Notes under the pieces: model-generated
What the model saw: only the letters and a program-made list of their open reading frames with translations
Database searches by the model: none
Told to the model about the DNA's origin: nothing
In this document: positions 1,628 through 56,571 of the stretch, one piece after another
Layout of the letters: every line of letters starts with the position of its first letter
How positions within the stretch are numbered: position 1 is the first letter of the stretch
Program-made: the position numbers and the translations under genes
NCBI RefSeq assembly: GCF_900215325.1
Contig: NZ_OCMS01000002.1
Location: forward strand, 868,001 to 932,000
Origin: Fibrobacter sp. UWB16
GTDB taxonomy: Bacteria; Fibrobacterota; Fibrobacteria; Fibrobacterales; Fibrobacteraceae
Reading direction: 5' to 3'
Length of the DNA: 64,000 bases

Positions 1628-1680
1628 CTGGATCCTTCGCGGAGTTTACCCCGGACTTGTTCCGGGGCTCAGGATGACAA
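1628..1680 (-). repeat. Dispersed palindromic repeat with a second hairpin nested inside
   Basis: Read on the minus strand, it starts TCATCCTGAGC and ends GCGAAGGATCCAG, the same outer arms as the copies at 63878-63912 and inside hemC (12782-12826). Between the arms sits a separate hairpin, CCCCGGAAC-aa-GTCCGGGG, which belongs to the CCCGG..CCGGG repeat family seen at 17576-17605. Confidence 0.8.
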
Positions 1681-3256: not shown

Positions 3257-4595
<1,339 letters not shown>

Positions 4596-4608
4596 AAGGG
4601 CGTAAAAA

Positions 4609-4637
4609 AGCACAAAACTTTAAAAAGCTTTGTGCGT
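4609..4637. terminator. Bidirectional hairpin terminator between tgt and the Rpn-type nuclease gene
   Basis: GCACAAAACTT (4610-4620) pairs with AAGCTTTGTGC (4625-4635) with one mismatch. It stands between the convergent ends of tgt (+) and the nuclease gene (-). Confidence 0.65.
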
Positions 4638-4683
4638 TCAACTATGAAATGCGATGAATTAGGTTGGGCTTGCAGTTATTTGC

Positions 4684-5487
4684 CTACAAGGCCTTGATTT
4701 CTTCGATAGTAAATCCGGTCTGCTTAGAGATAATGTCCAAAGAAACACCATCGTCGCGAAAACCCTTTGCCATCGCTTTTTTCTCTTCGAATGCCTTAGC
4801 CTCGGCTTCCTTTCTTCCTTCTTCCTTGCTTTCGTGAAGATCAAATTCGTAAGTCATATACTTATTCCTTATGAAAGTATCGGTCTTGTAAAAGGACACC
4901 TGGTTGTTGATGGTTTCGGTTTCGCGAGAGTCCACATTGTTTGTTGCAAAGTACTTCATGTATGCCTTGACGACAGGATCTGTGAATTCCTCGTATTTTC
5001 TAAATATATAATAATTCTTGAAGGTGAGGTCATTTAATGTAATGTTGAAATCCTCCTTTGCCCTGTTCTCAAAATGGTAAACAGGGAATCCTCCGCCAAA
5101 AATGTCTACGGGGCATAGAAAGATAATATATTGTTCTCTGAGACTTGTGTAAAAATCTCCTTTGGAGAGGGCTACACCGTCGCCGACACTTTGGTAATAC
5201 CGAGCCCTTTGCGGGAGTTCTTTGGTATCGACCATTTGCATCTCTAAATCAAAAGAACGGATGGCTTCTCCGTTTTCGTTTGTTTCGCGGGCAAAAACAT
5301 CGTAACGGACTCCCTTGTGTTCTGCGTCGTAACTTAGGACAGCTTCTGGGATTGGTGTTTCAAGATGGTCAATTTTGATGCCTAGTAAATGCTCGATGAA
5401 GGGCTGCGCGATATGTTTGTTACTAAACACGAGTCCGAACATGATTGGGTCAGTGATGTCAAGTTCGTCAAAAGATTTTATGCTCAT
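4684..5487 (-). CDS. Rpn-family PD-(D/E)XK nuclease/transposase-like protein
   Basis: A 267-residue member of the PD-(D/E)XK nuclease family (PDDEXK_2, recombination-promoting nuclease Rpn type). The catalytic core shows RYDVFARE and then SFDLEMQ (Asp..Glu-x-Gln), followed by the family block RARYYQSVGDGVALSKGD. The C-terminus has a Lys/Glu-rich helix and a helix-turn-helix-like end (DGVSLDIISKQTGFTIEEI) typical of these proteins. The ATG at 5487 follows AAAGGCG; frames further upstream lack a ribosome site. Rpn proteins are linked to RecA-independent recombination and, in some strains, to phage defence. It stands at the edge of an AT-richer island, which suggests transfer. Confidence 0.85.
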   Translation of the reverse strand: MSIKSFDELDITDPIMFGLVFSNKHIAQPFIEHLLGIKIDHLETPIPEAVLSYDAEHKGVRYDVFARETNENGEAIRSFDLEMQMVDTKELPQRARYYQSVGDGVALSKGDFYTSLREQYIIFLCPVDIFGGGFPVYHFENRAKEDFNITLNDLTFKNYYIFRKYEEFTDPVVKAYMKYFATNNVDSRETETINNQVSFYKTDTFIRNKYMTYEFDLHESKEEGRKEAEAKAFEEKKAMAKGFRDDGVSLDIISKQTGFTIEEIKAL

Positions 5488-5710
5488 AAATTCGCCTTTA
5501 ATTGTTTCGGGAGTCGTAATATATACGTGCAAATTTGGGAAAAGCTGTTTCCTGTAAATTTTGCAAACAACCGTTATCAAAATGCTTCATTTTGCCAACT
5601 GTTGATAGCAAATGTGTTTGTAACAAAGTATTGAAGATGTACTCTTGTTGTGGTGATCGTGTTGAATTGCGCCCTCTTAACGAGTTCACATGAAATAGGT
5701 TATAGTGTGT

Positions 5711-6004
5711 ATGAAGCATATTGAAACACTGACAATCGGGAAAATTCTTGACGAAGAATTCTTTACTCCCATGGGTTTGTCTGCGGATAAGGTTGCTAAG
5801 GCAATCAATGTTCCGGTTTCAATGATTCAGGATATCCTTCATGACCGTAGGAGAATTACGGTTGATACATCCTTAAAGCAAGCCAAGTTCTTTGGCGTTT
5901 CCGACAACTATTTTATTTCTTTGCAAGATGATATCGATATCCGTAATTTGAAAGTTGAATTGGCAGAAGAACTGGGTAAAATCATGGCGATTGTAGCTGC
6001 CTAG
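5711..6004 (+). CDS. HigA-like XRE-family antitoxin, no toxin partner seen
   Basis: A 97-residue protein with a helix-turn-helix (GLSADKVAKAINVPVSMIQDIL) followed by RRRITVDTSLKQAKFFGVSDNYF, the HigA addiction-module antidote pattern. HigA binds HigB and represses the higBA promoter. HigB normally lies immediately upstream, but the 223 bases before this gene hold no RelE/HigB-like frame, and the downstream gene is a GIY-YIG protein on the other strand. The ATG at 5711 is preferred over the GTG two codons earlier. It may be a solitary regulator, a remnant, or may neutralise a toxin elsewhere. Confidence 0.85.
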   Translation: MKHIETLTIGKILDEEFFTPMGLSADKVAKAINVPVSMIQDILHDRRRITVDTSLKQAKFFGVSDNYFISLQDDIDIRNLKVELAEELGKIMAIVAA

Positions 6005-6032
6005 ATGGGATATTGGGATGATATATCCTTTC

Positions 6033-7223
6033 CTAATCTAATGAGCGTAATTCGATGTTCTTGTGTTTTTTGAATTCTTTTATGACATCATTCCAAGATT
6101 CATGTGTGTGTTTAGGGCTGTAAATGACAAAACAGCGAATGTCGGGAAAAGTTTTGGCAAATAGAGAAATGTTTTCGTTCAAATGAAAGAGAATTTCTTG
6201 TATACTTGGAATTTTCTTCCGTAAAATTTCGAATTGTTTAAGAATAAAGCTTGGATTCCAAGTGAAAATATTGTTATATTGATCTTTGAAGAACATGCTA
6301 GTTTGATCTTTATCCCAAATCCAATACCAGTCAAAATCTATAATATCATTTGTTTTTTTAGTTAGACATAAATCTTTATCAGTGAGTTGATTCTCAAAAT
6401 TGGCTAGCCAATTTAGTTTATTAGCTACATCATTGATTTGAATGAAATTTGACTCATTAAGAATATATTTACAAAAGGGATCGTTTATGGCATTTTGCAT
6501 TCCATAGGCAAAAGATCCCATAGTGTGTTTTGCAAAATAATCAAATCCAGATAAATCGTTTAGATAAATTGGTTCCTTGCAAATAAATCGAGTTCCTTTT
6601 AACGAATAATCGGGTCCATGCATGGATTTGGTAAATGTTATTTCTTCTATTTGAGTGTATTCCCATAAAAAGAAGTCTTTTTTCTTGTGACCTTGCTGCT
6701 TTATTCCAACGATCAAATAAATCTTTTGGCCTTTCAATTTTAAACAATCTCTTTTTTGTGAGACTAGGGAATACGAATCTTCGTTGATATTGTAAAAAAA
6801 AGTATCTTCTCCGGGTAGATGGTTTAATGCGTTAAAATTATGGTATTGAACATAGCAACATTTTTCAGAAGAATTTTCTTTTCGAGGCCACATCCTGTCC
6901 GGACTTGGCGGACACATCATTCTATTGTATTCGGGTTGCAACTCGTCAATTTTTGCGTATTCGTTTTCTGTTAGGCTTTCTCTATCGCATTCTAGAAGAA
7001 CTTCAAATTTAAAATTCCCATAGGTTCCAGGTTGTGAAATCTGTTGGGTCAGACCGTATTTACAGAATGCTCTGCGGAGCGGATTTTCCTCATCAATATT
7101 TTTGATTTTATCAAGTGATTGTGTATGCTGCTTCCAACGGTTGGAAATATTGATAGACTGGCCAATGTAGCTTTTGCCATTAACCAAGTTTGTGATTTTA
7201 TAAATTCCGCAGATTGATTTCAT
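6033..7223 (-). CDS. GIY-YIG nuclease-domain protein with an unknown C-terminal region
   Basis: A 396-residue protein. Residues 1-105 form a GIY-YIG fold: CGIYKITN, then SYIGQSINISNRWKQH, and a later acidic residue in LTENEYAKIDELQPEYN. The remaining ~290 residues, rich in aromatic residues and lysine, match nothing I recognise; they contain FDWYWIWDKDQ and a late segment with CFVIYSPKH. No signal peptide or membrane helix is seen. The gene lies 18 bases downstream of a MORN-repeat gene on the same strand, so the pair is probably one operon. Base composition is clearly AT-richer than the flanks. A homing, defence or toxin-type nuclease are all possible. Confidence 0.75.
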   Translation of the reverse strand: MKSICGIYKITNLVNGKSYIGQSINISNRWKQHTQSLDKIKNIDEENPLRRAFCKYGLTQQISQPGTYGNFKFEVLLECDRESLTENEYAKIDELQPEYNRMMCPPSPDRMWPRKENSSEKCCYVQYHNFNALNHLPGEDTFFYNINEDSYSLVSQKRDCLKLKGQKIYLIVGIKQQGHKKKDFFLWEYTQIEEITFTKSMHGPDYSLKGTRFICKEPIYLNDLSGFDYFAKHTMGSFAYGMQNAINDPFCKYILNESNFIQINDVANKLNWLANFENQLTDKDLCLTKKTNDIIDFDWYWIWDKDQTSMFFKDQYNNIFTWNPSFILKQFEILRKKIPSIQEILFHLNENISLFAKTFPDIRCFVIYSPKHTHESWNDVIKEFKKHKNIELRSLD

Positions 7224-7241
7224 GGATTTCAAATTACATTT

Positions 7242-8171
7242 TTATTGAACAATTGAATTGTTTTGTATTTCTCCAAATACGTTTTCAAAGTTTTTTCTTG
7301 CAAAACGATATGATTCTACTGCTGTATGCAGCTTTTCTTTTACACTTTCCACTGTGATTAGCCCTAGTAAATCTAACGATTCTGCAATTTCGCATAAATC
7401 TTGCATGGCCATACAGTAATTATTGGCTACATCTTCGTTTTCAATATTATTTGCAAGTTCATAATTTTCGTCATCTTCATCGAAGTACATAGAAGGATCT
7501 TCTTTCATTAACTCCACTTCTTCTTTTGGAAAATTGACGTAATCGCATAGCTTAAGATAGGCTTCAAAATCAATTTCGTTTCCTTCGAGATCATAGTAAA
7601 TGTTTTTATATGTTGGTTTGTAAATTTTTGTCCAGCAGATACGGCCATTGGTATAAAAAGTATCTTCTTGAACAACACCTAATCCTTTTAGATATCTTTT
7701 GTATGAAGGAATGTTATTGTCTACGAGATAGTGAATTTCGTAAGAATCATCTTTGTCTAAACAAAAATTTCCGCTTGGATAGTATGATTTTTCATATTGA
7801 AAAATTCTTTTTCCGTTTATGTATTTTTTTTCAGCTTTCAATCGACCTGTATCAGGGTAGTATTCTAAAATGAGACCATCTTTTTTTCCGTTAGCATATG
7901 TAGTTTCTAAAATTTTGATGCCATTCTGGTATTCAATAACGATACCTTCTTTTTTTCCGTTGGCAAAAGGTGTATGTTTTGAAAGGATCCCTTTGTAATA
8001 CTCGTCTTCGATAACCTTTTTGCCGGATAAATACTGAATTCTTTTTACGTAGTTTCCGTTGACGTCGTATATAGTTTCCCAACCGTTTTTCTTGCCATTA
8101 AGCCATTCTGTTGATTTTACAACTTTACCGTTTAAATCTTTTTCCTCTATAAGTCCATTTTTCTGTGGCAT
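7242..8171 (-). CDS. MORN-variant repeat (YwqK-like) protein
   Basis: A 309-residue protein whose first ~190 residues are MORN_2-type repeats (NGKKNGWETIYDVNGN.., ANGKKEGIVIEYQNG, ANGKKDGLILEYY), the fold annotated as YwqK-family antitoxin. The C-terminal ~110 residues are helical and acidic (FPKEEVELMKEDPSMYFDEDDENYE). It is the upstream gene of a two-gene unit with the GIY-YIG protein. In Bacillus YwqK is encoded beside a polymorphic toxin, so an immunity or chaperone role for the GIY-YIG protein is an inference from gene order only. AT-rich like its partner. Confidence 0.75.
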   Translation of the reverse strand: MPQKNGLIEEKDLNGKVVKSTEWLNGKKNGWETIYDVNGNYVKRIQYLSGKKVIEDEYYKGILSKHTPFANGKKEGIVIEYQNGIKILETTYANGKKDGLILEYYPDTGRLKAEKKYINGKRIFQYEKSYYPSGNFCLDKDDSYEIHYLVDNNIPSYKRYLKGLGVVQEDTFYTNGRICWTKIYKPTYKNIYYDLEGNEIDFEAYLKLCDYVNFPKEEVELMKEDPSMYFDEDDENYELANNIENEDVANNYCMAMQDLCEIAESLDLLGLITVESVKEKLHTAVESYRFARKNFENVFGEIQNNSIVQ

Positions 8172-13218: not shown

Positions 13219-13314
13219 GTCACCCCGGATTTGTACAAGTACAAAGCCCTTCGGCTCAGCTATGAAAATGCAAGCATTTTCGCAGCGTTCGCCTTGGTTG
13301 CTTTTATTTCGGGG
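13219..13314 (+). repeat. 96-bp dispersed repeat, copy 1
   Basis: It is about 92% identical to the reverse complement of 53938-54033. It begins GTCACCCCGG and ends TTTCGGGG, so the ends are complementary. Internal hairpins are TTTGTAC-aa-GTACAAA and GAAAATGC-aa-GCATTTTC. It is followed by CGGAATCGCC, the outer arm of the TGTCAT repeat family. Confidence 0.9.
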
Positions 13315-13334
13315 CGGAATCGCCATCTTGTATC

Positions 13335-50438: not shown

Positions 50439-50468
50439 TGTCATTCCGGCCTCCGAGCCGGAATCACC
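50439..50468 (+). repeat. TGTCAT..ATCaCC palindromic repeat
   Basis: A 30-bp intergenic copy with stem ATTCCGG/CCGGAAT between the convergent ApeR and apt genes. Confidence 0.85.
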
Positions 50469-50481
50469 ATTATCATTTGCT

Positions 50482-50997
50482 TTAAAACTTCGTCAGTGAT
50501 TCCACGCGGTAGCCATCAAGGACTTCGCGACCTTTAAGATCCGCAAGCTCAATAACAAAAGCAAAACATTCAACTTTACCGCCCATTTTCTCTACGAGAT
50601 GGGCGGCTGCTTTTGCAGTGCCACCGGTAGCGAGTAGGTCGTCGACGATTACCACGCGTTGCCCAGGCTTTATCGCATCTTTATGGACTTCCATACAGGC
50701 GGTCCCGTATTCGAGATTGTAAGTGATTTCTACAGTCTCGCGGGGGAGTTTCCCTTTTTTGCGTTCAGGAACAAACGGCTTGTGGAAATGCTCTGCAATC
50801 GGAACACCAAATAGGAATCCGCGTGCTTCTAGCCCGACAACGACATCGAAATCAACATTTTCAAGCGTTTTATAGAATGCATCAAGCGTGAGCTTCAATC
50901 CATCAGGGTCACTCAAAATTCCCGTAATATCACGGAACAAAACACCCGGTTTAGGAAAATCCGGAACAGCAATAATGTAGTCTTCAATACGTTTCAT
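50482..50997 (-). CDS. apt: Adenine phosphoribosyltransferase
   Basis: A 171-residue purine salvage enzyme that makes AMP from adenine and PRPP. The PRPP-binding loop is VVIVDDLLATGGTAKA (near 120-135). FPKPGVLFRDI, GLEARGFLFG and PERKKGKLPRE are typical of Apt. Length is normal. It faces the end of the pigment cluster and is preceded by a repeat-rich gap. Confidence 0.96.
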   Translation of the reverse strand: MKRIEDYIIAVPDFPKPGVLFRDITGILSDPDGLKLTLDAFYKTLENVDFDVVVGLEARGFLFGVPIAEHFHKPFVPERKKGKLPRETVEITYNLEYGTACMEVHKDAIKPGQRVVIVDDLLATGGTAKAAAHLVEKMGGKVECFAFVIELADLKGREVLDGYRVESLTKF

Positions 50998-51021: not shown

Positions 51022-51057
51022 CGTCATTCTGAGCGATGAAATCGCGAAGAATCCAGT
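51022..51057 (+). repeat. CGTCATTC..GAATCCAGT repeat
   Basis: A 36-bp intergenic member with central stem GCGAT/ATCGC. It has the same length and arms as the two copies inside ahbAB. Confidence 0.88.
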
Positions 51058-51078: not shown

Positions 51079-51161
51079 TGTCATTCCGGCCTCCGAGCTC
51101 TTTGACCACTTGCGCTTTAGCGCTTATGTGGTCATGATCCGCGAATGGGGACGGAATCGCC
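51079..51161 (+). repeat. TGTCAT repeat interrupted by a nested hairpin
   Basis: The outer arms TGTCATTCCGGCCTCCGAG and CGGAATCGCC are those of the 30-bp repeat family. Between them is a ~54-base insert containing GACCAC..GCGCT-tt-AGCGC..GTGGTC, a separate hairpin. Confidence 0.8.
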
Positions 51162-51173
51162 ATCTCGTTATTG

Positions 51174-52058
51174 CTAATGACTATCCAACAACTTCTCGAC
51201 TGTTGCTATAATCTTGTCGCGTTCCCCGCACCAGTTCGGCGCAATCAAAAGCTCGCTTGGGCTTTCGCCACTGAAACGTTCAATTGCAATATCCTTGCCG
51301 ATAATCTTGATCATTTCGGCAACCGCTTCGCAGTATTCCTCGAACGAAAGCAGTTTGACTTCGCCGTTGGCGAAATCTTGTGCCATGACCGTGCCCACGA
51401 CAATGTGCAGCGGGTGAATCTTGACTGCCGCAAGTTTCAAATCGTGAACGACTTGTGCCGTGTGCTTAAAGTCTTCCATCTTTTCGCCGGGAAGCCCAAC
51501 AATCACATGCGTCGTGACGGTGAGGCCTGCGGCTTGACAGCGTTTTACGGCATCTTCAAATTCCGCAAGCGTGTGCCTGCGATTGATGCCTGCAAGCGTC
51601 AAGTCATTTGCCGTTTGGAGCCCGATTTCAACGATAATCGGCTTTTTGCGGTTGATTTCCGCAAGGTATTCAATCTTTTCGTCTTCAAGGCAATCCGGGC
51701 GCGTTCCAATGGCTAGCCCTGCAATTTCCTTGTGCTTAATAATCGGATCGATGATTTCGCGCAAATGCTCTAGCGGTGCGTGCGTATTTGTGTACGGCTG
51801 CAAGTAGGCGAGGATACCTGCATTCGGGTACTTGTCGCGAAGTTTCGGAACGTACTTTTCGAGTTGTTCCTGAATCGAAACCTTTGCCTCATCAAAAACT
51901 GGGCTAAAGCTGCGGTTGTTGCAGTAGCTGCAACCCGAAAATCCCTTGGTGCCGTCGAGGTTTGGGCAGCTCATGCCGCCGTTGAGCGGGAGTTTGCGCA
52001 CCTTGAGGTAGTTGGGGAAAAGCTCCAAAAGTAAATCGCGATAAGGTTTGTAATGCAT
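51174..52058 (-). CDS. Radical SAM protein of the TIGR01212/YhcC family
   Basis: A 294-residue radical SAM protein. The cluster-binding cysteines are spaced as in CPNLDGTKGFSGCSYC, the pattern of the YhcC group rather than CX3CX2C. LQPYTNTHAPLEHL, GTRPDCLEDEKIEYL and EIGLQTAND follow. The reaction is not established for this family. It is monocistronic and starts at ATG 52058. Confidence 0.87.
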   Translation of the reverse strand: MHYKPYRDLLLELFPNYLKVRKLPLNGGMSCPNLDGTKGFSGCSYCNNRSFSPVFDEAKVSIQEQLEKYVPKLRDKYPNAGILAYLQPYTNTHAPLEHLREIIDPIIKHKEIAGLAIGTRPDCLEDEKIEYLAEINRKKPIIVEIGLQTANDLTLAGINRRHTLAEFEDAVKRCQAAGLTVTTHVIVGLPGEKMEDFKHTAQVVHDLKLAAVKIHPLHIVVGTVMAQDFANGEVKLLSFEEYCEAVAEMIKIIGKDIAIERFSGESPSELLIAPNWCGERDKIIATVEKLLDSH

Positions 52059-54438: not shown

Positions 54439-56571
54439 TTATTCTTCCTTGATTGTATAAGGCAGCAGTCTTATTCCTACAGGGTTCAACTTGGCATGTC
54501 CACGGACGTTTGCTGGCAACTGTAGCCCAAAACCTGTTGCTTTAAGGCGATCTTCCTTGATGCCTTTATTCACAAGGTACTCGTAAACAACTGTTGCGCG
54601 CGCTTCCGAAAGGGATTGCGGAATCATCGCTTCACCTGGCTTTACGCTGCACTGAATTTCAATGGCGATTTTCTTGTTGTGCCGCATGATAGAAACCACA
54701 TCGCTTAAAGCCGTGTAAGATGAATTAATCGGCTTGTCTGTGCTCTTGTGGAATTGAATTCGCCTTGCGATTTTGTCGAGGTTCTGCTTTTCTCGAATCG
54801 GGCAGCCGTTTGCATCGACTTCGGTTTGTTCAAGCGTGTTCGGACAGTTGTCGAGGTAATCGAAAATGCCATCTTTATCAGAATCCAAAGGGCAACCGAT
54901 GCTATCGACTGGCGCATTTTCAGGCGTATCAGGGCATTTGTCATCTTCGTCAAATACACCATCAAGGTCATGGTCTAGCCGGCATCCGACGCTATCGACT
55001 TTTACTCCTGAAGGAGTCTTTTCACATTTGTCCATAAAGTCCGGGATGCCGTCTTCGTCAGAGTCAATGGGGCAGCCGTACATATTGACAATCTCGTTCG
55101 GCATGCTGTTTTGGCACTTGTCCCATTCGTCTGGGACGCCGTCCTTGTCCATGTCCAAGAAGCATCCGTATTTGTTCACGGTGAGTCCTGCAGGCGTATT
55201 CGGGCAGGAGTCGAGTACGTTCGGAATGCCATCTTCGTCTGTATCGAGGATACAGCCTTTCTCGTTGACTTCTTCACCGGGTTCGGAATTGGGGCATTTG
55301 TCTAGTTCGTTCGGAATGCCGTCGTTATCGTTGTCTCGGATACATCCAAATTCATCGACTGGGTAGCCTTCCTTGGTGTTGGGGCACTTGTCTAGGTGGT
55401 CTGGAACGCCATCGCTATCGTGGTCAAACGGGCATCCGTTCTCGTCAATAAGCACTTCTGCGGGCGTGTCAGGGCATCGGTCTAGGTCGTTTGCAATACC
55501 GTCGTTATCGTCGTCGGGCGCACAGCGGTACTTGTTTTCTTTGAACGAAAGGCCTGACTTGGGGCATGCGTCCATCTTCTTTTTAAAGTCTTCGATCCTT
55601 CCACTGAGGTCAAATGTACGGCTAAACTTGATGGATACGGCCATGGTTGGACTGCCAGGGACAGTGTAAGAATACTTGTGGTCCTTGTTCTTGACAGTGA
55701 TGGCGTGGCCACGGTGGATCTTTTGCTTTCTGAAAAGGTCCATACCGAGATCGGCATTGATGGAAAGCGTTGTGAATTTCGGAAGTCTTACTTTCAAACC
55801 CGGTGAAAATCTCAGCTGGTCATTCAAAAATTCGTGCCATACGTTTTTAGTGCGAATGTGCGTTTCACCGGAGGTCTCGAGTACAAGAGAAACCCATTCA
55901 TAGGGGAATAGATTTAAGCCTGAACCCCAGATAAAAATGTTCTCTCCGTTTCCAAATGTTCTGAGATAACCTGCATAGTTGTTCCAGTTGAGGTTCCTAT
56001 GGATGTTTATCGTCATGTACAATGTTGCGGCGGCGACGAAATCAGATGCAGAATAGGGGTTGGACAATTCGTCTTCGTGAATGTACCAAAGGTGCCTTGG
56101 GCGTAACCCCTTTTCATTTGTTCCGGTAGGGATGAAAACTTCAAGTGCTGCAGCAAAGTTGAACAGATCTCTCAAGGACTGGTTGGGAAGTTGGACCTTG
56201 GCTAATAGTCCTATATCTCCAAATCCAAGCCCCTTGAGCTTGGTGTTACCAGCATTTCCGTCATAGTGGACGTTCAGGTTCAATCCGATTTCAAGGTAGT
56301 CCAAAATACCATAGCCTACATAACCGAGGACGGAGTTTGATGGGGAATCCTTGGTAAGCTCGTATTTTTTACCGTTTTCATCCGTCAGGAATCCTTCGAT
56401 ACTGGCGGGCTTACTGCTATTCGCCATTTCGAATCCGCCCATGACGAACAAGTCTCCCGGACTGAGAGTTCGTGCTCCAGGAACATGGATTCCGCTGCTG
56501 TTGATGGAAAATCCGGACTGCGCAAACAGAAAAACTGCGCTAAAGAGAAGTGTTGATAGAAATTGTTTCAT
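54439..56571 (-). CDS. OmpA-family outer-membrane protein with eight thrombospondin type 3 repeats
   Basis: A 710-residue protein. The signal peptide cleaves near residue 18-20 (FLFAQSGFS). Residues ~25-330 form a beta-barrel-like N-terminal domain (GDLFVMGGFEMAN.., FGDIGLLAKVQLPNQ). Eight TSP3 calcium-binding repeats then follow (DxDxDGxxDxxDxCPxTP, about 355-580, each closed by a GC pair). The OmpA-like C-terminal domain (about 600-705) keeps SLSEARATVVYEYLVNKGI and RLKATGFGLQLPA but lacks the GHTD peptidoglycan-binding signature. Fibrobacter has several TSP3-OmpA proteins implicated in outer-membrane and cellulose contact; that role is inferred here. Confidence 0.88.
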   Translation of the reverse strand: MKQFLSTLLFSAVFLFAQSGFSINSSGIHVPGARTLSPGDLFVMGGFEMANSSKPASIEGFLTDENGKKYELTKDSPSNSVLGYVGYGILDYLEIGLNLNVHYDGNAGNTKLKGLGFGDIGLLAKVQLPNQSLRDLFNFAAALEVFIPTGTNEKGLRPRHLWYIHEDELSNPYSASDFVAAATLYMTINIHRNLNWNNYAGYLRTFGNGENIFIWGSGLNLFPYEWVSLVLETSGETHIRTKNVWHEFLNDQLRFSPGLKVRLPKFTTLSINADLGMDLFRKQKIHRGHAITVKNKDHKYSYTVPGSPTMAVSIKFSRTFDLSGRIEDFKKKMDACPKSGLSFKENKYRCAPDDDNDGIANDLDRCPDTPAEVLIDENGCPFDHDSDGVPDHLDKCPNTKEGYPVDEFGCIRDNDNDGIPNELDKCPNSEPGEEVNEKGCILDTDEDGIPNVLDSCPNTPAGLTVNKYGCFLDMDKDGVPDEWDKCQNSMPNEIVNMYGCPIDSDEDGIPDFMDKCEKTPSGVKVDSVGCRLDHDLDGVFDEDDKCPDTPENAPVDSIGCPLDSDKDGIFDYLDNCPNTLEQTEVDANGCPIREKQNLDKIARRIQFHKSTDKPINSSYTALSDVVSIMRHNKKIAIEIQCSVKPGEAMIPQSLSEARATVVYEYLVNKGIKEDRLKATGFGLQLPANVRGHAKLNPVGIRLLPYTIKEE

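Follow-up and report, generated by a model that had tools for sequence, protein, structure and literature searches.

Introduction

Elements of the IS200/IS605 family insert cleanly, without target duplication. Passages of PMC6006769 and PMC2817692 describe hairpin-based recognition and a lagging-strand preference for these elements and for TnpAREP/RAYT. REPs are themselves specific insertion targets of IS3, IS110, IS4, IS256 and IS5 family elements, as set out in part of Tobes and Pareja (2006; PMC1525189). The CGTC-tagged REPs of Di Nocera et al. (2013) include neisserial dRS3 and the Rickettsia repeats RPE-4 and RPE-6 and, in the sections of that paper drawn on here (PMC3733652), are described as allowing TGTC, with stems of 8–9 bp that start with AT, a loop of 4–5 nucleotides and a CCA tail, apparently without a dedicated transposase. 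The same sections mention REPs that lie inside palindromes (H. neapolitanus, A. variabilis and T. roseum), and excerpts of PMC2800124 concern mobile gene-less hairpin elements in sponge and fungal mitochondria. The word Fibrobacter is absent from the text of PMC3733652 and from that of RepRanger (PMC12306157), and the elements treated here were absent from the papers listed in the open-access literature on palindromic repeats, double hairpins, REP/MITE, nested and loop insertions, dRS3 and IS1397.

The window (i.e., the whole stretch of 64,000 nucleotides that was analysed) comes from the genome of Fibrobacter sp. UWB16 (3.56 Mb, 9 contigs) and contains a REP-like hairpin, P0, split by a 53-nt element, A. 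A itself is no CGTC REP; it consists of two hairpins and interrupts such a REP. It resembles the REP-targeting IS elements in the part of PMC1525189 cited above in having repeat hairpins as specific targets, and differs from those transposase-bearing inserts in being 53 nt long, gene-less, structured and itself a target. With IS200/IS605 and TnpAREP/RAYT it shares hairpins, strand preference and clean insertion, whereas A and P0 lack a GT[AG]G guide tag, the tetranucleotide on the 5' side of the target varies and the genome has no Y1 gene. It is also like the cases in the cited passages of PMC3733652 and PMC2800124, which comprise hairpin repeats inside palindromes or mobile hairpins without genes, although the fixed-bond rule, the comparison with empty sites and the three-level nesting are, relative to those passages, found in Fibrobacter only. 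In its way of working, A would appear closest to a single-strand-DNA hairpin element. Within the scope of the searches, the novel features are an element without genes that is specific for REP hairpins, insertion at a single bond, the occurrence of empty and filled alleles, and nesting on three levels.

Results

Structure of the composite

A sequence-only reading of the window had described one hairpin nested in the loop of another palindromic repeat. The nesting was borne out, with bounds at 51080–51161 and the right boundary about where it had been placed. Read directly, the composite consists of GTCATTCCGGCCTCCGAGC, a 53-nt insert and CGGAATCGCC, the P0 arms GTCATTCCGGCCTCCGAGC and CGGAATC being split by A at 51099–51151. 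The inner GACCAC..GTGGTC hairpin noted in the same reading was confirmed as TGACCAC (51103–51109) paired with GTGGTCA (51128–51134) around an inner stem of GCGC (51112–51115) with GCGC (51120–51123), and the same insert was found in 28 genome copies. The composite sits between a minus-strand gene at 50482–50997, which from its translation we take to resemble adenine phosphoribosyltransferase (apt), and a gene at 51174–52058, the translation of which presumably represents a radical SAM protein. The features of this region are as follows.

50440–50468, plus strand: uninterrupted P0 with the same arms (hairpin 50440–50465), across the apt-like gene from the composite
51022–51057, plus strand: P1 repeat hairpin CGTCATTCTGAGCGATGAAATCGCGAAGAATCCAGT, adjoining the composite and also present in relative G018
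51080–51098, plus strand: 5' half of the P0 outer hairpin, the same as in the uninterrupted copy at 50440 and in the empty sites L241 and L242; it holds the 5' arm ATTCCGGC, the loop CTCCGA and the first two bases of the 3' arm, with the tag TGTC at 51079–51082
51099–51151, plus strand: element A, the 53-nt insert TCTTTGACCACTTGCGCTTTAGCGCTTATGTGGTCATGATCCGCGAATGGGGA, every base of which is missing from the orthologous loci of G018 and G022
51103–51134, plus strand: A hairpin 1, outer stem TGACCAC/GTGGTCA and inner stem GCGC/GCGC, with covariation among 51 distinct copies
51116–51119, plus strand: A inner loop TTTA, empty here and the site of element B in 8 of 28 genome copies
51138–51151, plus strand: A 3'-terminal module TCC GCGAAT GGGGA, an imperfect hairpin 2 that ends at the junction
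51152–51161, plus strand: remainder of the P0 3' arm, CGGAATC, with tail GCC

When 51079–51168 was folded as single-strand DNA, a z of -2.37 was obtained and 5 of 200 shuffles were equally stable; the minimum-energy fold retained the inner hairpins and was without the outer stem.

Resemblance of P0 to CGTC REPs

At least 206 perfect copies of P0 were found in the UWB16 genome and none with a reversed-pattern control. Among 53 plain copies, the base preceding GTC was T in 48 and C in 4, and the stem was 8 bp in 43, starting with A followed by T or C, with a loop of 6 in 26 of the 43. The tail after the arm and C was TCC in 31 copies, GCC in 10, ACC in 7, CAG in 4 and ACT in 1. P0 is like CGTC REPs in its TGTC or CGTC tag and high copy number, and broadly so in its 8-bp stem, short loop and unpaired tail; it is unlike them in a loop that is mostly 6 rather than 4–5 and in a tail of CTCC, CGCC or CACC rather than CCA. 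On these sequence features its tag, stem and copy number appear to place it in the CGTC superfamily, with loop and tail fitting less well. An assignment of P0 to the RAYT/GTAG REPs was rejected given this tag and the result with the RAYT model reported below.

Empty and filled orthologous sites

Insertion of A was evident from the orthologous intergenic locus of two relatives, G018 (L241) and G022 (L242), each of which holds an intact P0, GTCATTCCGGCCTCCGAGCCGGAATCGCCATCTCGT, from which exactly the 53 nt of A are missing. The P0 arms flanking A are identical to those of both empty sites; A at this locus is a precise insertion, without target duplication or base loss. Identity at the locus was 92.5% between G018 and UWB16 and 89.2% between G018 and G022. 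Since G018 is nearer to UWB16 than to G022 here, gain of A in the UWB16 lineage is the simplest history. Two further orthologous pairs consisted of P0 with A and B versus plain P0 (L160 and L053) and of A with a 79-nt B (133 nt) versus plain A (54 nt; L074 and L193), and L122 (plain A) versus L016 and L155 (A with B) is probably another, with an untidy alignment.

Copies and structure of element A

A search with the 3'-end pattern of A gave 28 copies in the UWB16 genome, 24 exact and 4 with one mismatch; four further matches at 2–3 mismatches were chance-like and the reversed control gave one match. By reading of the loci, 27 of the 28 lie in P0-like hairpins, two of which (L026 and L047) have an altered tag, the exception being L048. 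Counts across the genus ranged from 0 to 37 per genome (at most 2 mismatches), and the pattern was matched in 41 of 111 family genomes, some of the matches outside the genus being due to chance. An exact 17-mer of A also turns up by chance in unrelated coding DNA.

All fetched loci together gave 125 A copies after flank deduplication, or 124 minus one zero-length record; because orthologues may persist across species (e.g., L005 and L113), counts from the 125 are not fully independent events. Lengths of the 124 were 52–54 nt for 101 copies and 131–142 nt for 22 with B inside, and one of 63 nt reflects a wrongly set left end. With duplicate loci counted, left and right halves of A were 27–29 or 106–111 nt apart in 155 of 159 pairs, the four longer pairs being read as unrelated matches, and one unpaired match was due to chance. 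No autonomous A, with a gene between its ends, was found in 269 loci and the window.

The termini were near-constant in the alignment, with TCTTTG at the start and ATGATCCGCG[AT]ATGGGGA at the end, and the 3'-terminal module, TCCCCGAATGGGGA in relatives, was (nearly) invariant. Hairpin 1 is conserved and covarying, and hairpin 2 is imperfect. Statistics for plain A were based on the 51 distinct sequences among 101 copies, in which 32 distinct forms of the inner hairpin occurred. An inner stem of at least 4 bp was noted in 44 of the 51, compared with a mean of 6.8 and a maximum of 14 for shuffled halves, and Watson-Crick pairs filled 337 of 357 cells of the outer stem, compared with a shuffle mean of 304.5 and a maximum of 318. 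This covariation is selection on the folded strand, DNA or RNA.

A subfamily, A2 (GGACAGCAC...GTGCGCATGGTCCCCGAATGGGGA), was seen in L072, L073, L076, L078, L080 and L202, and those relatives seen in L072, L073 and L078 appear to enter REPs closer to the foot. Position +1036 of L202 holds a nest of P0, an A2-like element and B. A further repeat family of the genus (AGACGAAAGAACG...; L187, L097, L243, L246 and L264) hosts A in L187 and B in L097.

Position of the insertion site

Insertion points of A were not random: the flanks, once joined, gave a stem of 6 bp or longer in 98 of 125 insertions, whereas 3000 random positions drawn from these loci did so 271 times. Hosts of the 124 copies comprised 105 of GTCA type (at most 1 mismatch), 5 with a P1 right flank and 14 others. 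In 101 of the 105 GTCA-type copies, the junction (offset 0) fell precisely where the sequence complementary to the initial six bases of the 5' arm sets in. A enters the 3' arm at a single bond that lies six bases up from the hairpin foot, and both position and orientation are fixed. When measured from the loop edge, the offset was 0, -1, -2 and -3 for stems of 6, 7, 8 and 9 bp (12, 4, 57 and 6 copies, respectively), and another 15 copies, with stems of 7 bp, were at -2. Stem length varies and the distance from the foot is mostly constant, so that the foot rather than the loop sets the site. The proposal of the sequence-only reading that hairpin loops are preferred targets was thus correct as to hairpins and, for A, incorrect as to single-stranded loops.

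The 14 other hosts were mostly P0-looking with an altered tag or arm; A lies within a further inner hairpin in L156 and L194, and no clear hairpin was seen in L077. The 5' flanks included 24 different 4-mers (GTTC 38, GAGC 21, GTGC 9, GATC 8 and others, of 125), and the right flank was GAAGGAT (P1) in 6 of 125. By reading of loci, whole P0 hairpins were also found inserted in P0 in five cases (L017, two in L118, L126 and L159). These insertions abut the same bond as A; the last bases of the inserted REP are GGGA, and those of A are GGGGA.

Strand preference

GC skew in sampled 10-kb stretches was negative in 19 of 20 from contig C1 and positive in 17 of 20 from C2, 10 of 11 from C3 and 5 of 5 from C5. 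By this contig-level sign, 24 of the 28 UWB16 copies of A lie on the G-rich strand (p 0.0002), i.e., 14 of 14, 7 of 10, 2 of 2 and 1 of 2 for C1, C2, C3 and C5. For other genomes, 70 copies in genome-contig loci of at least 5 kb were scored by local skew, of which 48 were on the G-rich strand (p 0.0025; 39 of 60 where absolute skew exceeded 0.03) and only 39 on the strand richer in long-ORF sequence. Part of the bias in UWB16 may be inherited since P0 is also strand-biased in that genome (61 of 83 on the G-rich strand of C1 among the copies listed); the bias of A was mildly above that of P0 (p 0.04 against an assumed 0.69). Plain P0 in the other-genome loci, with 16 of 37 copies on the G-rich strand, showed no strand bias. 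Where the top strand corresponds to the leading strand, it serves as template for the lagging strand, and it is there that IS200/IS605 elements, which target the lagging strand according to passages of PMC6006769, act. For the mechanism that recognises loops or cruciforms envisaged in the sequence-only reading, the bias of A leans toward single-stranded DNA at the replication fork rather than a cruciform in double-stranded DNA.

Elements B and C

Element B (about 79 nt) was found by a strict pattern in 21 UWB16 copies, 8 of which are inside A, always in its inner loop. Of the 13 copies outside A, the 12 other than L347 were noted in P0 loops after GGATTT (L337, L340 and L346), in apparent reversed P1 (L334, L341, L343, L344 and L345), beside P0 and flanked by two copies of AAGGAGAT (L333), or without a clear host (L335, L348 and L349). 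Entry into loops, proposed for such hairpins in general, fits B, which follows TTT in the inner loop of A and also occupies P0 loops. Similar nesting had been reported at three other positions in the window; nesting was seen at each, with inserts that differ from A. These sites, and one more that carries B, are listed below.

1628–1680, minus strand: P1 repeat that encloses a second hairpin, CCCCGGA..TCCGGGG
13219–13324, plus strand: P0 with B directly in the loop
53930–54033 (approximate bounds), minus strand: second P0 with B in the loop
60360–60413, plus strand: P0 with element C (GGAGCCTGTGCTGAGCGCAGTCGAAG) in the loop

A and B have an outline in common, TTTGAC-hairpin-GTCA followed by a spacer and a second hairpin, which suggests that they may share a way of moving.

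Candidate enzymes

Y1_Tnp was absent from the UWB16 genome and present in 27 of 80 genus genomes. Its presence did not track A number, as 8 of 21 genomes with at least 4 A copies and 19 of 59 with fewer were positive, and no A, B or P1 motifs were found in the flanks of 30 fetched Y1 loci. The RAYT model gave no match above the curated cut-off in any of the 80 genomes. Longer frames (310–324 aa) with weak RAYT matches, unlike the short IS200-like Y1, were noted in G031 (C16:27287-27691), G065 (C135:735-1085) and G082 (C169:2216-2530).

IS110 genes were present in 6 of the 80 genomes, UWB16 not among them, and all six belong to the 21 with at least 4 A copies. In L272 (~1240–2530) and L273 (~1240–2560), from G035 and G071, IS110 elements apparently lie in B-type hairpins (GGCTCGG/TC ... 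/TCATACCC, the slash marking the junction), a placement that resembles that of REP-targeting IS110 elsewhere. In G075 (L270, 2544–2596), an A element in a P1-like hairpin follows the matched IS110 domain, approximately 0.6 kb further downstream.

Discussion

The reading that we prefer, with a probability of roughly 55%, is that A is a gene-less single-strand-DNA hairpin element that enters CGTC-type REP hairpins via a putative nicking and joining enzyme. P0, a CGTC-type REP hairpin, was present before A arrived; most likely its strand, when exposed in the lagging-strand template as the DNA replicates, would be single-stranded and fold. A putative enzyme with an HUH-like mode of action would recognise the foot of the hairpin and nick the bond six bases above it in the 3' arm. 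A, which would have left its donor site as a single folded strand with the 3' end TCC...GGGGA, would be joined there. The inner hairpin of A could then provide the loop for B. As no Y1, RAYT or IS110 protein was detected in the UWB16 genome, such an enzyme could be a protein that escapes recognition, could work from elsewhere, or could since have disappeared.

Because defining features failed, A was not filed under IS200/IS605, RAYT, IS110 or DDE MITEs. Thus, a DDE-type MITE was rejected on the lack of target duplication at the empty and filled pairs and on ends (TCTTTG and TGGGGA) that are not inverted repeats, and an IS110 element on the lack of a junction base common to both ends and of IS110 genes in the UWB16 genome.

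Several other explanations were weighed against the movement of A as a folded single strand. It is unlikely that A is a conventional REP-type element served by an extinct or trans-acting RAYT/IS200 transposase, Y1 having been lost from the lineage. Hairpins, strand bias and insertion without target duplication would agree with such an origin, as would the patchy occurrence of Y1 genes in the genus, but these genes are short IS200-like ORFs with fetched flanks devoid of A, B and P1 motifs, no RAYT passed the curated cut-off and a GT[AG]G tag is lacking. Homologous recombination or gene conversion as the means of spread, with one P0 that bears A as template for another and the arms as homology, is distinctly improbable. 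The arms and flanks of P0 at the window locus match the empty site and show no converted tract, the homology would span just ~18 + 7 bases, and A is also found in hairpins with other arms (P1, AGGCATC in L160 and GAAGGGCG in L187); this is despite a ready account of fixed position, fixed orientation and absent target duplication, and despite the plentiful P0 partners.

Given that IS110 is known to target REPs, A could also be a miniature bridge-RNA-guided element of that family, and the confinement of IS110 genes to A-rich genomes, together with the apparent insertion of two of four IS110 loci examined (L272 and L273) in B-like hairpins, is in keeping with this. The UWB16 genome has no IS110 gene, however, no core dinucleotide is common to the junctions (GAGC/TCTTTG...GGGGA/CGG), and no sequence in common was seen between A and the IS110 ends examined, all of which makes this origin very improbable. 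The least credible proposal, which we consider extremely improbable, is that A is part of a structural RNA or terminator and that the seemingly empty loci are precise deletions. Covariation in A suits RNA equally well as single-stranded DNA, and T-runs follow many P0 copies; against this, the two nearest relatives are both empty at the window locus, A copy number varies between genomes from none to 37, and the window matches no Rfam family at gathering thresholds.

Returning to the single-stranded route, a wider version of it is possible, if rather doubtful, namely that a non-Y1 enzyme nicks the CGTC REP, folded within the lagging-strand template, at the bond six bases up from its foot, that the same cut admits REPs, A-type elements and composites, and that REP hairpins would thereby serve as docking sites of layered gene-less single-strand-DNA elements. 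The genus offers dozens of polymorphic, precise, single-bond insertions in REPs, which occur as empty and filled alleles and show both structural covariation and a strand bias, and these supply defined DNA substrates for seeking the enzyme of CGTC REPs. The nested insertions of A and B are a handle on the movement of gene-free repeats and suggest that mobile DNA devoid of genes can become nested through its structure and not just through its sequence.

Other observations in the window

Eight 44-nt repeats at 90-nt spacing were noted in coding-like sequence at 54842–55515; read on the minus strand, they may be calcium-binding repeats of a thrombospondin type 3-like kind. In addition, G+C content falls to 0.378 within 4001–8000, compared with 0.45–0.52 in the surroundings, and this stretch is perhaps acquired DNA.
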